Assembly (NCBI GenBank): GCA_902800005.1
Contig: CADCCP010000011.1
Span: 1-41,006 of the forward strand
DNA: 41,006 bases
Reading direction: 5' to 3'
Source: an uncultured Ruminococcus sp.
Lineage (GTDB): Bacteria; Bacillota; Clostridia; Oscillospirales; Acutalibacteraceae
The position numbers were made by a program, and so were the translations under genes. The notes beneath the pieces are model-generated. The model had not been told where the DNA came from, made no database searches, and saw only the letters and a program-made list of their open reading frames with translations. This document shows positions 1-34,189 of the stretch, in pieces. Each line of letters starts with the position of its first letter. Positions within the stretch are counted from its first letter, which is position 1.

Positions 1-84
1 CACATTGTAAATTGTACATTGCACATTGTAAATTGTACATTGCACATTGTAAATTGTACATTGCACATTGTAAATTGTACATTG
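1..84. repeat. 21-bp tandem repeat, four copies
   Basis: Four perfect head-to-tail copies of the 21-mer CACATTGTAAATTGTACATTG occupy the first 84 bases, and a partial fifth copy (CACATT) follows. The unit is AT-rich and partly self-complementary (TGTAAATTGTACA-like core). It lies just beyond the stop codon of the minus-strand HD gene. There are no unique spacers, so it is not a CRISPR array. The array may continue to the left of the window; if the window edge is a contig edge, the repeat may be why assembly stopped there (inference). Confidence 0.95.
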
Positions 85-7577: not shown

Positions 7578-7850
7578 ACCGAATACAGTTATCTGCATTG
7601 AAAAGAAGCATGGATTTCATATGGGTGTATCTCAGAGAAAGGCGGTCGTAGGCTGTGAGCCGCCTGTACATTCGATCTTCATGTACCGTCTTGGAGCTGT
7701 ACAGTGATGAATTGTACCGTATATCTGCGTTAAGGATACAATGAGTGGCGGCATACTGCCGTTTAATTCAGGGTGGAACCGTGTGGATCTTATTCCTCGC
7801 CCCTTTATGCTTGTTTGCATACAGGAGCGGGGGTTTTTTGATGCAAAAAT
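7578..7850 (+). ncRNA. T-box leader (threonine), with terminator
   Basis: The 7451-7872 gap holds two promoters and this riboswitch. Stem I features are the AGAGA box (7634-7638) followed by a GGCGG...CCGCC arm with distal-loop sequence. In the 3' side of stem I the sequence GATGAATTGTACCGT contains ACC (7716-7718), a threonine codon in the expected specifier position. The conserved GCGTTAAGG follows (7728-7735). The T-box proper AGGGTGGAACCGTG lies at about 7770-7783 and would pair with the uncharged tRNA-Thr acceptor end. A terminator hairpin (about 7795-7837) with a TTTTTT tail precedes the gene. Uncharged tRNA-Thr should favour read-through into thrS. The specifier call is by eye, without a folded model. 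Confidence 0.92.
7795..7844 (+). terminator. T-box-controlled attenuator of thrS
   Basis: The arm CCTCGCCCCTTTATGC pairs imperfectly with GCATACAGGAGCGGGGG around the loop TTGTTT, and TTTTTT follows. This is the conditional terminator of the T-box leader. The alternative pairing would use the T-box sequence upstream. Confidence 0.85.
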
Positions 7851-7872
7851 ATTTTTTACGGAGGTTTTTAAA

Positions 7873-9737
7873 ATGATAAAAGTTGAACTGAAAGACGGCT
7901 TTATCAAAGAATTTGATGAAAATGTCAGTGTTGCAGATGTTGCCAAAAGTCTTGGCGGCGGTCTGTACAAGTCCGCCTGTGTTGCAAGAGTCGATGGAGA
8001 AGTGTGCGATCTCAGAACGGAATTGACAAAAGACTGCAAGGTGGAAATACTCACTTTCGACAGCAAAGAAGGCAAAAATGCTTTCTGGCATACGACTTCA
8101 CATATACTTGCACAGGCTGTTAAAAGACTTTTCCCAAATGCAAAATTTGCGATAGGTCCTGCTATCGACAGCGGTTTTTACTATGATTTCGATGTGGAAA
8201 TGAAAAAGATAGTCAAAGAGGGCTTTGACGTTGAGAGATTCTATTTACAGCCCGATGAAGCAGTAAAAATGCTTGAAGAAATGAATGAACCCTACAAAGT
8301 GGAACTTTGCAAGGAACACACCGACAAAGGCGAACCTATCAGCTTTTATAAACAGGGCGAATTCACAGACCTTTGTGCAGGTCCTCATCTGATGAATGTC
8401 GGCGTTATCAAGGCTGTTAAACTTACAGCTTGTACGGGTGCTTATTGGAGAGGTGATTCAAAAAATAATCAGCTTTGCAGGGTTTACGGTGTATCTTTCC
8501 CGAAAGCGTCAATGCTTGAAGAACATCTCAAAATGCTTGAAGAAGCAAAACTGCGTGACCATAATAAAATCGGTCGTGAACTTGAATATTTCACGACTGT
8601 TGACTATGTGGGACAGGGCTTGCCCGTACTTCTGCCCAAGGGTGCAAGAGTTATACAGCTTTTACAGAGATGGGTTGAAGATACCGAGCAGGCTCGTGGC
8701 TGTCAACTGACGAAAACACCTCTCTTTGCAAAACGTGAACTCTATAAAATTTCGGGACATTGGGATCACTACCTTGACGGTATGTTTGTACTCGGCGATC
8801 CAAATGATGAAACAAAAGAATGTTTTGCACTTCGTCCTATGACTTGTCCTTTCCAGTATCAAGTTTTCCTCAATAAACAGCGTTCTTACAGAGAACTTCC
8901 CATGCGACTGACGGAAACTTCAACGCTTTTCAGAAATGAAGCGTCATTTCAGAGGGACATTATATTCTCCGTCCCGATCAGCTTGAAGAAGAATTCAAGG
9001 GCTGTCTGGAACTCGCAAAATACTGCCTTGATACAGTCGGACTTTTGGAAGATTGCACGTTCAGATTTTCACAGTGGGATCCCAAAAACCCCAACAATAA
9101 ATATGAAGGCACGGCGGAACAATGGGAACACGCTCAGAGTGTCATGAAAAAGATACTTGACAATATCGGACTTGAATATGAAGTCGGCATAGATGAAGCT
9201 GCTTTCTACGGTCCTAAACTCGATATCCAGTACAAAAACGTCTTCGGCAAAGAGGACACTATCGTTACTATCCAAATAGATATGCTTCTCGCTGAAAAAT
9301 TCGGTATGTACTACATTGATAAAGACGGTCAGAAAAAGCTCCCCTACATCATACACAGAACTTCTCTCGGCTGTTACGAAAGAACACTTGCCTATATGCT
9401 TGAACATTTTGCAGGTGCGTTACCGATGTGGCTCAGTCCCGAACAGGTGCGTGTATTGCCTTTGAGCGAAAACCTTGCAGATCAGGCTAAGGAAATCGAG
9501 GCTAAACTCCTTAATGCAGGAATCAGAGTTACAACAGACCTCAGAAGCGAAAAGATAGGCTACAAGATTCGTGAAGCTCAACTTGAAAAAATTCCCTATA
9601 TGCTCGTTATCGGCAATAAGGAAGTTGAAAACGGCACCGTTTCCGTCCGTTCACGCAAACAGGCTGACATGGGTTCAATGCCCCTTGACGATTTTATCAA
9701 ACTTGCTCTTGAAGAGATAGCCGCAAAGAAAAAATAA
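7873..9737 (+). pseudogene. thrS: Threonyl-tRNA synthetase with internal frame-breaking deletion
   Basis: Two reading frames together give a nearly complete ThrS. The first runs from ATG 7873 (GGAGG site upstream) through the TGS domain (residues 1-62), the editing domain (HTTSH and CAGPH) and the catalytic core to LFRNEAS near 8946. From about 8946 the frame shifts and continues as ISEGHYILRPDQLEEE through the anticodon-binding domain to 9737. Between NEAS and ISEGH about 13 conserved residues (family pattern GEMHGLIRVRQFT) are missing, consistent with loss of about 40 nt. This is the motif 2 loop, including the RVRQF arginine that contacts the substrate. As read, the product stops early at 9147 and would be inactive. 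Because thrS is normally essential, an assembly or base-calling error or a second thrS copy elsewhere must be considered. The upstream reading-frame extension to 7741 lies in the T-box and is not coding. Confidence 0.9.
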
Positions 9738-9750
9738 TCACCCAAAAAAG

Positions 9751-9780
9751 ACGTTTGCTTTCGGGCAAACGCCTTTTTTC
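9751..9780 (+). terminator. Intrinsic terminator of thrS
   Basis: CGTTTGC (9752-9758) pairs with GCAAACG (9765-9771) around a TTTCGG loop, followed by CC and six T. Confidence 0.88.
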
Positions 9781-9789
9781 ATTCCAAAC

Positions 9790-9833
9790 AAAAAGATTGA
9801 CAGCTCCCATGATCTCTCATCATTGGAGCTGTC
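9790..9833 (-). terminator. Terminator of the large RNA
   Basis: On the minus strand GACAGCTCC (9833-9825) pairs with GGAGCTGTC (9807-9799); the loop has a further ATGATGAGAGATCAT pairing, and AATCTTTTT follows. It faces the thrS terminator, so the two transcripts converge. Confidence 0.88.
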
Positions 9834-9865
9834 ATCTAAACAATGGAGGCACAATAATCATCTTC

Positions 9866-9926
9866 TCATCGGACTCATTCCCTAAACATAACATCTGAAT
9901 ATAAAAGTTATCATCGGACTCATTCC
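9866..9926 (-). repeat. Duplicated 16-base motif in the large RNA
   Basis: GGAATGAGTCCGATGA (minus-strand sense) occurs exactly at 9881-9866 and again at 9926-9911, 45 bases apart. The sequence between them is TAACTTTTATATTCAGATGTTATGTTTAG, which can fold weakly. Identical exposed loops or two protein-binding sites are possible. Confidence 0.8.
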
Positions 9927-10609
9927 TTCAACTTTATATCAAAACCGCTTTCGGTTTTATGTCCTATCTCTGATACGGAATACATTCGGTGAACGGTCTT
10001 AACGACGAACACCATCGAAAGAATCTTAACGCTTTGCTCACCACGACCACCCATATGGCGACCGCACACTACACCGAAAGATCATCAATGCAATGCGGAG
10101 CTTCCGACCAAAGACGGAGGAGAAAATACCTTGTTCAACCTTCTCTGACACCATTCCTGAACAATGTCTTCAAGCGATCCCCGTGTGTCAATACGGTTAA
10201 TTCCCCATCAGGCAATCACACCCATGCAGGAAAACACATATTCAATTTTTCATTCCGGATTCAGATGATACCCTGCCGCAGAAACTTCGTTGTGATCCTT
10301 CAACATACGGCTGACTTTTATTGTCAGGCACCTTCATACGACTCTAAGACCTTTCAGAACTCACTCGGCTCATTGCCTTACTAAACGGAGTGTACGCCGT
10401 CCAAACTCAGAACGGACATTTTAAACACCCCAAAAAATCAACTTTCCTTCCTACTCTGTCCCATCATCGTTGAAGACATCGCACCAACTTGTGCGACGAT
10501 CATCAATATCGGTTCAACATCGCCCATTGGAGCCTGCCTCCTTTCAATGATCTGACCTGCAAAGCACCATGCCCTGCACCTTTCCGAAATCTTTCTTTAT
10601 CTTGATTGT

Positions 10610-10638
10610 ATTATACCACCTCTCTTATCAAATGTCAA
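10610..10638 (-). promoter_or_regulatory. Consensus promoter of the large RNA
   Basis: On the minus strand TTGACA (10638-10633), a 17-base spacer and TATAAT (10615-10610). Both hexamers match the sigma-A consensus exactly, suggesting strong expression. No ribosome site plus reading frame follows. Confidence 0.9.
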
Positions 10639-10807: not shown

Positions 10808-12211
10808 ATGGAAAAAATCATAGGCGGTATCAAGCATGAATGCTATCCGCTTACACCCGCACAGATGGTGCATATGTACACTCTCCAGCTCAGCCCCACT
10901 CACGAGATCGTAAACATCGGTACAGGTCAGTTCTTTAAAGTCGATCTCAATGTATCGGTGCTTCGTGAAGCTCTCAATCGTGCCGTTGAGAGATGTGAGG
11001 CTATGCGTATGAGAATATGGCGTGATCCTGAAACAGGCGAGCTTTGGCAGTATATCATGCCTTATAAAAATCAGTATTTTGAATACTATGATTTCTCTGC
11101 CCTTACGGAAGAAAAGGCTCATGCTATCCTTGAAAGATGGACTTCACAGCCGTTTGATACATATGGCGGTGAACTTTCGAGAATAGTGATCGTTTCCATG
11201 CCCGACGGCTACAACGGCTATTATTTCAATGTACATCATGCCTGTGAAGACTCCTATTCTGCCATCACTTTCACCAAAGATGTCCTTGAGATATATTGCC
11301 ATCTGATGTATGATCTGCCTGCTCCTGCTCCCGTAACGTCATATATCGAGTCTGTCAAGAAAGACCTTGAATATCCCAATTCCAAAAAAGCAAAGCGTGA
11401 TGAGGAATTCTGGCATTCAAAACTTGCACAGCCCGAACCGATCTATACAGACTTCACCGGTCCCGGCAGACTTATGCAGCTCCGTCAGGAAATGGGAAAT
11501 CCCGATCTCAGATGGGGTTCTCTCCCGACCAAAGATGCGGCAGGTGCGACCGTTACTTACAGCCTTGACGTTGAATCAACAGACAAGATCATCGCTTTTG
11601 CAGAGGAACATAATATCCCGACAAGTGTAGTTATCATCCATGCCATCAGAACCGTTCTTGCTAAATTCAACAATCAGAATGATGTCACTATCAGAGACTT
11701 TATAAGCAGACGTTCCACTCTTCTCAACAAGAGATGCGGCGGTGTCAGAATGCACTGCCTGCCCCTTAGAACTATCATCGAACCGACTGCTACCGTCCTC
11801 GAATCTATGGAGATCATCAACAAGGCTCAACAGGATGTTTTCCTCCATGCAGATTACTCCACCATGAAATATTACTATGAAGAAAGAATGAGATACCAGT
11901 ACGGTGCGGCAGGTACTTACAGCAGTATCAGCTTTACCTATCAGCCCGCTACAAGAAAGAGCCTTATCCCCTACCTCAAAGACATTCCTTTCAAGAGCCG
12001 TTGGTACTGCAGCGGAAAACAGCCTCAGCCTTTCTATATCACTGCTATGCACCGTCCCGGTGACGGCGGTCTTAACTTCTACTTCGGCTACCAGAAAGAC
12101 TCCGCTACTCCCGAAGAAATTGAATTCCTCTATTACTTCACCGGCAGAGTGCTTTTCAGAAGCATCGAAAACCCCGATAAGACTATTCAGGAGATCATGG
12201 ACATGGTCTGA
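10808..12211 (+). CDS. Stand-alone NRPS-type condensation-domain protein
   Basis: A 467-residue single-domain protein of the CoA-dependent acyltransferase/condensation superfamily. The N-terminal ECYPLTPAQ is the usual C1-like start (xxxLTPxQ). The catalytic HHxxxDG box appears as HHACEDS at residues 143-149, with H144 as the likely general base and D148 kept but the Gly replaced by Ser. The C-terminal half keeps the superfamily's second lobe. An excellent AAAGGAGG site precedes the ATG. It is first in a three-gene unit with a carrier protein 27 bases downstream and an adenylating ligase. It probably joins the acyl or aminoacyl group held on the carrier to an amine or alcohol acceptor. Both substrates are unknown. 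No signal peptide or membrane segment is seen. Confidence 0.85.
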   Translation: MEKIIGGIKHECYPLTPAQMVHMYTLQLSPTHEIVNIGTGQFFKVDLNVSVLREALNRAVERCEAMRMRIWRDPETGELWQYIMPYKNQYFEYYDFSALTEEKAHAILERWTSQPFDTYGGELSRIVIVSMPDGYNGYYFNVHHACEDSYSAITFTKDVLEIYCHLMYDLPAPAPVTSYIESVKKDLEYPNSKKAKRDEEFWHSKLAQPEPIYTDFTGPGRLMQLRQEMGNPDLRWGSLPTKDAAGATVTYSLDVESTDKIIAFAEEHNIPTSVVIIHAIRTVLAKFNNQNDVTIRDFISRRSTLLNKRCGGVRMHCLPLRTIIEPTATVLESMEIINKAQQDVFLHADYSTMKYYYEERMRYQYGAAGTYSSISFTYQPATRKSLIPYLKDIPFKSRWYCSGKQPQPFYITAMHRPGDGGLNFYFGYQKDSATPEEIEFLYYFTGRVLFRSIENPDKTIQEIMDMV

Positions 12212-34065: not shown

Positions 34066-34094
34066 TTGACATTTTTAAATCAATGTTATATAAT
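34066..34094 (+). promoter_or_regulatory. Promoter of tRNA-Gly
   Basis: TTGACA (34066-34071), a 17-base spacer and TATAAT (34089-34094), 23 bases before the tRNA. Confidence 0.88.
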
Positions 34095-34116
34095 AACAAC
34101 TGTCGCTGAAAGAAAT

Positions 34117-34189
34117 GCGGATGTAGCTCATCTGGTAGAGCGCAACCTTGCCAAGGTTGAGGTAGCGAGTTCGAGCCTCGTCATCCGCT
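34117..34189 (+). tRNA. tRNA-Gly (anticodon GCC)
   Basis: A 73-base cloverleaf. The acceptor arm GCGGATG (34117-34123) pairs with CATCCGC (34182-34188), with discriminator T. The anticodon stem CAACC/GGTTG holds loop TTGCCAA with anticodon GCC (34150-34152). The T loop is GTTCGAGCC. The 3' CCA is not encoded. It has its own promoter and terminator. Confidence 0.98.

Follow-up and report, generated by a model that had tools for sequence, protein, structure and literature searches.

What is encoded by the stretch between thrS and a divergent plus-strand gene cassette was examined in a window of DNA from an uncultured Ruminococcus sp. (the window is the whole 41,006-nucleotide stretch analyzed). 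An earlier reading, made from the letters alone (the sequence-only reading), had proposed a new or unassigned large structured RNA on the minus strand. That proposal held: the region was not matched by Rfam, homologues were found, and covariation was detected clade by clade. As judged from these comparisons, the region is a single-copy gene with definable boundaries, a kept fold, and kept reading frames.

Transcription unit and known RNA families

The predicted transcription unit consisted of the following features.

10610 to 10638, minus strand: promoter, TTGACA, 17-nt spacer ending in TGG, and TATAAT (12 of 12 consensus matches)
9791 to 10603, minus strand: structured RNA of about 813 nt, its 3' end set by the terminator tail
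9799 to 9833, minus strand: intrinsic terminator hairpin, with a U-rich tail to 9790 (terminator scan and fold)

The promoter, described earlier as a perfect minus-strand consensus, matched at all 12 positions, and TG precedes the -10 hexamer, forming an extended -10 element of sigma-70 type (minus strand, 10638 to 10610). The 41-kb window contained two such 12/12 promoters (spacer of 16 to 18), the second at 34066 on the plus strand. A tRNA gene at 34117 closely follows this second promoter (34066 to 34189, plus strand). The 5' end of the RNA (10603) was inferred as 7 nt past the -10 hexamer, and the leader begins AAGAUAAA. The terminator was as strong as had been supposed, with the hairpin at 9833 to 9799 and a fold of -25.2 kcal/mol (z, -4.75) for the 60 nt from 9791 to 9850. 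The layout was also as first described, the RNA gene being convergent with thrS and divergent from the plus-strand genes that begin at 10808. thrS itself is read as two overlapping frames (7741 to 9147 and 9045 to 9737, plus strand), which suggests a frameshift or a draft assembly error. The thrS terminator (9752 to 9771) is symmetrical enough to serve as a second terminator of the minus-strand RNA and was also found by the terminator scan.

The region had been called gene free. This was correct in that no full protein gene was present, the conserved frames found all being short, and incorrect in that one conserved short frame (10527 to 10438) and two mini-frames near the 3' end were found. 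By its own promoter, terminator, and covarying fold, the region from 10603 to 9791 is predicted to be an independent RNA gene.

At the gathering score, an Rfam 15 scan of the window returned tRNA only, and a scan of 11 homologue loci and one viral locus returned 6S RNA and one tRNA only, leaving the RNA part unmatched. Relaxed searches gave matches below the cut-offs only (far below in the window's RNA region), none of them to GOLLD, ROOL, OLE, or HEARO; the strongest to overlap an RNA locus was rli38 (37.3/49 bits), located in L173 near the 3' end and on the other strand. Rfam presumably holds a model for HEARO. Models for GOLLD, ROOL, and OLE exist in Rfam, according to passages of PMC12286853. 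No Rfam match to raiA was obtained in the window or the 11 loci, but Rfam may not cover raiA, for which the accessible text of one paper describes a custom profile.

The absence of tmRNA and RNase P hallmarks noted from the sequence was confirmed, tmRNA being a separate gene and RNase P RNA being one in same-genus relatives. tmRNA was rejected, as it had no match in the window and a full-length copy lies elsewhere (G000:C10:71169-71519). Class A RNase P RNA was rejected as well, since 13 of the 20 genomes searched, some of them same-genus carriers of the RNA studied here, have a separate gene for it; it was not found in the window's own incomplete genome. Identity with 6S RNA was rejected because the 6S of the window's genome lies elsewhere (G000:C41:46354-46542). 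Literature searches on the RNA itself and on arrays of start-stop sites within structured RNAs yielded nothing on point. The main texts of PMC7580957 and PMC8040213 (candidates 27 to 219 long), supplements excluded, held no description of it in the portions available.

Homologues and genomic setting

Homologues, which the sequence-only reading had proposed to seek in gut and rumen Clostridia, were abundant. The RNA sequence was single copy in the window's draft genome. By nucleotide search, a homologue was found in 45 of 99 genomes (the window's own counted), all of the same genus, and 46 homologue loci were retrieved for comparison. A covariance model of the 5' core (R1) had exactly one match in each of 58 of the 64 genus genomes and matched 25 of 26 genus genomes of good quality; of the six without a match, one (G052) was of good quality. 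Among 150 family genomes, the same model also picked up three further genera, with weak matches (E, 4e-4) in two. The core sequence pattern was present in 16 of 398 family genomes and 6 of 135 genera, with no match for the reversed-pattern control; outside the genus, it matched 10 genomes from five other genera of the family. All 10 of these members had a promoter with its -35 element starting 60 to 260 nt before the short frame, and 9 had a terminator score of at least 29, L185 being the exception.

An order-wide search of 394 genomes with the 5'-core model gave two genus members and two weak matches among the matches listed, for which nine candidates were scored per genome, so that absence elsewhere in the order is suggested weakly. 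Weak 5'-core matches at L098 and L099 (E, 0.03 to 0.06) belonged to other families of the order, and the core expression was not found there. The core pattern occurred in 56 named records, 50 of them titled Ruminococcus, Ruminococcaceae, Clostridiales, Clostridia, or plain bacterium; we read rumen and rabbit origin from isolate names like RUG, Lapin, and Roe_deer_Rumen. The other six (L114, L117, L123, L124, L146, and L155) carried titles of other groups, and the three of these that were inspected (L114, L117, and L123) looked chance-like. A phage origin was rejected, the pattern scan of viral contigs having produced two matches without the other features of the RNA.

In 65 of 67 members, a promoter of the form TTGACN-16..18-TAWAAT (53 perfect) lay upstream of the short frame at a distance of no more than 330 nt. 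The two without it (L073 and L088) are cut before the promoter region and thus give no evidence of loss; a promoter was found in every homologue whose extracted sequence extended far enough upstream. The terminator scan of 46 sequences was positive in 43. RNA length ranged from 813 to 1,067 nt among the 42 RNAs with both ends placed, the window included. L049, L051, L055, L073, and L088 had no usable 5' or 3' end and were excluded from the full-length references, the contig ending within L088; L169 was missed by the script's expression and stands outside the 67-member set.

6S RNA was found in the same locus for 9 of 11 RNA loci scanned. The loci with 6S (RF00013) beside the RNA gene came from several genera (L173, L174, L175, L177, L178, L185, L186, L187, and L059). 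Within the genus, 6S lay within about 1 kb, in divergent orientation, in 9 of 12 genomes; no 6S was found in two of the remaining three, and the third carried it on a separate contig. The window's genome also has its 6S on a different contig, and there the RNA adjoins thrS, as in L050. Among loci that the script's expression matched, the first frame upstream toward 6S was a gene that we take, from its sequence type, to be DUF1292-like in 16 of 21 cases (13 of 18 without same-place repeats). Where checked, the DUF1292-like gene stood between the RNA gene and 6S, in a conserved pair of RNA genes. The 6S neighborhoods of five genomes from other families contained neither the short-frame motif nor the 3' motif.

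At the 3' side, a small gene with the motif TSCPD was convergent with the RNA in clade B loci (for example, L074, L081, and L093) and in L166. In L078, the sequence just past the RNA terminator, at the contig end, resembles the 5' end of a group II intron.

Fold and conserved frames

The minus strand of the region (825 nt) folded at -258.3 kcal/mol (z, -4.2; 20 shuffles) and the plus strand at -177 kcal/mol (z, -3.95); both strands fold well, so the energy of a single sequence cannot by itself pick the strand. Alignment energies favored the minus strand over its reverse complement: for the 13 sequences of clade A, RNAalifold gave -164 kcal/mol on the minus strand, -84 on the reverse complement, and -19 ± 6 with shuffled columns. 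Pairs changed on both sides numbered 67 of the 166 predicted in clade A (maximum of 42 with shuffled partners and 29 with slid partners) and 55 of the 107 predicted in clade B (maxima of 38 and 30). Under a harder null, in which the inferred root was kept, substitutions were moved along the tree with per-site rates, and the result was refolded (12 simulations per clade), the two-sided pairs stood at 67 versus a maximum of 10 in clade A, 55 versus 5 in clade B (16 sequences), 27 versus 13 in the window's clade W (5 sequences), and 38 versus 18 in clade C (5 sequences). The covarying structure expected from the sequence was thereby recovered in all four clades tested, with compensatory changes far above the refolded tree null. 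The clades, picked by eye, comprise 39 of the 46 sequences, and L060, L063, L066, L067, L073, L075, and L084 belong to none. With an R-scape-like test, the global alignment of 46 sequences yielded only one significant pair, which is attributed to poor alignment across clades. The main elements of the fold were as follows.

10102 to 10118, minus strand: long helix, 5' arm, UCCGUCUUUGGUCGGAA (compensatory changes)
9962 to 9980, minus strand: long helix, 3' arm, UUCCGUAUCAGAGAUAGGA (compensatory changes)
10477 to 10498, minus strand: hairpin CGUCGCAC / GUGCGAUG inside the short frame (compensatory changes in relatives)
10238 to 10247, minus strand: conserved element AAUUGAAUAU (consensus; present also in L186 to L188 and L161)
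10025 to 10032, minus strand: conserved element GCGUUAAG (consensus of relatives)

Both sides had changed in 8 of 15 pairs of the long helix in clade A, 5 of 10 in clade B, and 3 of 17 in clade W; for the hairpin inside the short frame, the counts were 4 of 8 in clade A and 1 of 8 in clade W.

Two features lie near the 5' end.

10438 to 10527, minus strand: short frame of 29 codons, MGDVEPILMIVAQVGAMSSTMMGQSRKES, kept across members
10529 to 10541, minus strand: possible hairpin GGAG-GCAGG-CUCC holding the Shine-Dalgarno sequence of the short frame (alignment A1, 47 sequences)

Some 60 to 80 nt into the RNA, the sequence reads GAAAGGAGG-CAGG-CUCC-A-AUGGGCGA. All 67 members had a Shine-Dalgarno sequence within the hairpin and a frame of 19 to 45 codons near the 5' end. 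The same hairpin layout occurred in the 10 other-genus genomes, for which the search pattern itself required GGAG and UCC. In the window, the isolated region of the 5' frame folded by a different pairing. The short frame opened in all of the first 47 sequences, which had been found by homology and not through its AUG. A frame of 19 to 45 codons was present in 23 of 23 representatives, compared to 7.2 ± 2.3 in shuffles (maximum, 15), and the other two reading frames were as long in only 5 and 7 of the 23. The distance between the AUG and the following conserved block used two of the three phases (38 and 9 of 47 sequences, with none in the third). The stop codon varied among TAA, TGA, and TAG (23, 7, and 1 in the 26-codon group; 9, 3, and 1 in the 25-codon group).

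A conserved 5' frame with a strong Shine-Dalgarno sequence, followed by a large structured remainder, is what a dual-function RNA like staphylococcal RNAIII would present, with a real peptide of 19 to 45 amino acids and a body acting as antisense regulator. The N-terminus MG[DEA]xxP recurred in most members, other genera included, and frame 0 scored above the other frames in two groups (bootstrap intervals, 0.25 to 0.52 for 26 codons and 0.05 to 0.36 for 25 codons), so some peptide constraint is possible. Against a selected peptide, substitutions were nearly even over codon positions (3,658, 3,577, and 3,962 in the 26-codon group, a slight third-position excess), and of 200 column permutations, 15, 85, and 49 attained the score observed (26-, 25-, and 22-codon groups), which is not significant. 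In the 22-codon group (four sequences), frame 1 outscored frame 0. For 9 of 47 sequences, among them the window's clade, the C-terminal half is read in a different frame, and the other-genus N-termini are biased, since those members were picked by a pattern fixing ATGGGCG and ACC. A dual-function RNA was accordingly considered unlikely. On these comparisons, the open frame and its stop appear to be kept, and the peptide itself does not appear to be clearly kept. The sequence-only reading had named a conserved protein frame as evidence against a structured RNA; frames are indeed conserved, as this one and the start-stop frames below, but they occupy a small part of the RNA, and their amino acids are not clearly selected.

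Near the 3' end, two motif copies were each followed by a very short frame.

9912 to 9926, minus strand: first 3' ribosome-site motif, GGAAUGAGUCCGAUG (pattern match)
9882 to 9914, minus strand: mini-frame 1, MITFIFRCYV-stop (reading after the first motif)
9867 to 9881, minus strand: second 3' ribosome-site motif, GGAAUGAGUCCGAUG (pattern match)
9858 to 9869, minus strand: mini-frame 2, MRR-stop (reading after the second motif)

Across members, GGA-N5-UCC-N-AUG occurred in one to four copies in the 3' part of 61 of 67, giving 123 sites. A stop followed within 10 codons at all 123 AUGs and immediately at 54. The first site read AUG-UAA in 41 of 46 sequences having it, and the window's clade (five sequences) read 3 to 10 codons. 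Within the genus, the AUG-UAA hardly varies and may represent a sequence motif. Among 105 distinct downstream 12-mers, all 105 stopped within 10 codons (shuffles, 51% ± 5%); the corresponding rates were 56% and 36% for the two alternative frames and 48% for the other AUGs of the same RNAs (n = 929). With start-stops removed and the remainder clustered at 60% identity, 43 of 43 stopped early, versus 20.1 ± 3.2 in 3,000 shuffles (maximum, 31). Other genera used other codons: AUG-GCA-UAG and AUG-UAA in L159 and L177; AUG-ACU-UAG in L161; AUG-AUU-UAG in L186 to L188; AUG-AGA-UAA, AUG-GUA-UAA, and AUG-UAA in L178; and AUG-AGA-UAA and AUG-CAA-UAA in L173. The mini-peptides across these sites were MA*, M*, MR*, MQ*, MV*, MT*, and MI*. 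The 3'-site expression missed L088 (truncated), L160, and L185 to L188; by eye, L186 to L188 had a variant site and L160 a looser one with a stop after five codons, and L185 had no clear 3' site and no clear terminator.

These sites bear on a second alternative, an ornate structural RNA of the GOLLD, ROOL, or OLE type that forms RNA-only complexes and in which GGA-UCC-N-AUG elements are folding or binding motifs with unused AUGs. The size and elaborate covarying fold fit such an RNA, and assembly into cages or dimers is described for such large RNAs in passages of PMC12286853. Motif copies without AUG (two of three in L161 and one of three in L173) likewise indicate that the motif may serve structure as well as initiation. 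However, a purely structural motif does not predict stops that are specific to the frame of the AUG and present at every counted site, and Rfam was unmatched. Weighing against docking at hairpin-set sites, GGA and UCC are nearly invariant, leaving the 3-bp hairpin without covariation support, and on its own the window's 3' site region folded no better than shuffles. A structural RNA of this kind was judged quite improbable.

Repeated, near-identical elements of Shine-Dalgarno sequence and AUG in one RNA could also be a protein-binding decoy that mimics translation starts and titrates a translational repressor, by the titration logic of CsrB. Early in-frame stops would be unnecessary in a decoy, and the 15-base pattern GGANTGANTCCNATG occurred at only these two places in the window's 2.4-Mb draft genome (89% complete; reversed control, 0), so no found mRNA shares it. 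A decoy thus seems very unlikely. Chance structure in an AT-rich spacer, to which low single-sequence fold energy on both strands might point, is scarcely credible and is refuted by the presence of the RNA in 58 of 64 genus genomes and by covariation far beyond the null.

Candidate function and known systems

The best explanation, held tentatively and at somewhat under an even chance, is that the region encodes a member of a new family of large structured RNAs that are transcribed as units of their own and act through the engagement of ribosomes. In this mechanism, 30S subunits would dock on Shine-Dalgarno sequences set within small hairpins, and the docked ribosomes would initiate and then terminate almost at once. 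The peptide sequence is not clearly selected, which favors docking over product, and the constraint accordingly looks like one on ribosome loading and quick release. Occupancy by ribosomes, rather than the peptides, would set the fold, stability, or activity of the RNA in trans. The RNA might then report on or buffer translation initiation capacity during growth transitions, as 6S does for RNA polymerase. We infer that ribosomes really dock, that docking sets the activity of the RNA, and that growth control is exerted by the RNA in trans.

A more specific and rather doubtful version would make the RNA a ribosome counterpart of 6S, that is, an abundant housekeeping RNA that captures ribosomes or 30S subunits on hairpin-gated start-stop sites and tunes translation globally, holding or recycling the captured ribosomes or 30S subunits according to growth state. 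A role as a sponge would require very high abundance of the RNA. To our knowledge, no bacterial RNA of this ribosome-capturing design is known.

Large bacterial RNAs are few, and most are without known function; this one is chromosomal, single copy, and near universal in a rumen and gut genus. Its ornate fold combined with ribosome start sites, whose frames are too short for protein, offers a testable handle on function. If the ribosome counterpart is true, control of ribosomes alongside that of RNA polymerase by 6S would be a new kind of global regulator. 6S is itself a housekeeping RNA that binds a core machine, RNA polymerase, and is a conserved neighbor of the RNA studied here, yet it is a separate gene in the same genomes.

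Staphylococcal RNAIII is a dual-function RNA with a short frame, and the present RNA resembles it and VcdRP as a regulatory-type RNA with a frame of about 26 to 29 amino acids. The VcdRP frame is 29 amino acids, as given in the available text of PMC8672173. Unlike in RNAIII and VcdRP, the amino acids are not clearly selected, and an extra array of very short start-stop frames is present. In the bar minigenes of lambda, the AUG is soon followed by a stop, and the sites described here share with minigenes and start-stop sites an AUG with a stop at once or within a few codons. Start-stop sites of Campylobacter and, as cited there, Escherichia coli have been reported from ribosome profiling, with potential regulatory functions (sections of PMC11955535). 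The Campylobacter start-stops described in those sections lie inside other genes, out of frame, whereas those reported here are conserved in a stand-alone structured RNA.

The resemblance to GOLLD and ROOL suggested from the sequence stood as to size and failed as to setting. Like GOLLD, which often exceeds 800 nt, ROOL, and OLE, the RNA is large and highly structured, and binding of ribosomes to GOLLD has been reported from pull-downs; both GOLLD and ROOL are genes of phages and prophages, in many cases close to tRNA islands (all from passages of PMC12286853). The present RNA differs in being a single-copy chromosomal gene, usually beside 6S, that adds conserved short frames and has no covariance-model match. 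Ribosome binding by GOLLD and the reported start-stop sites give each ingredient a precedent; the combination of a structured RNA with a start-stop array was not found in the literature searched. Set beside these systems, the RNA is best read as a candidate new structured-RNA gene family, with ribosome engagement as its proposed distinguishing feature.
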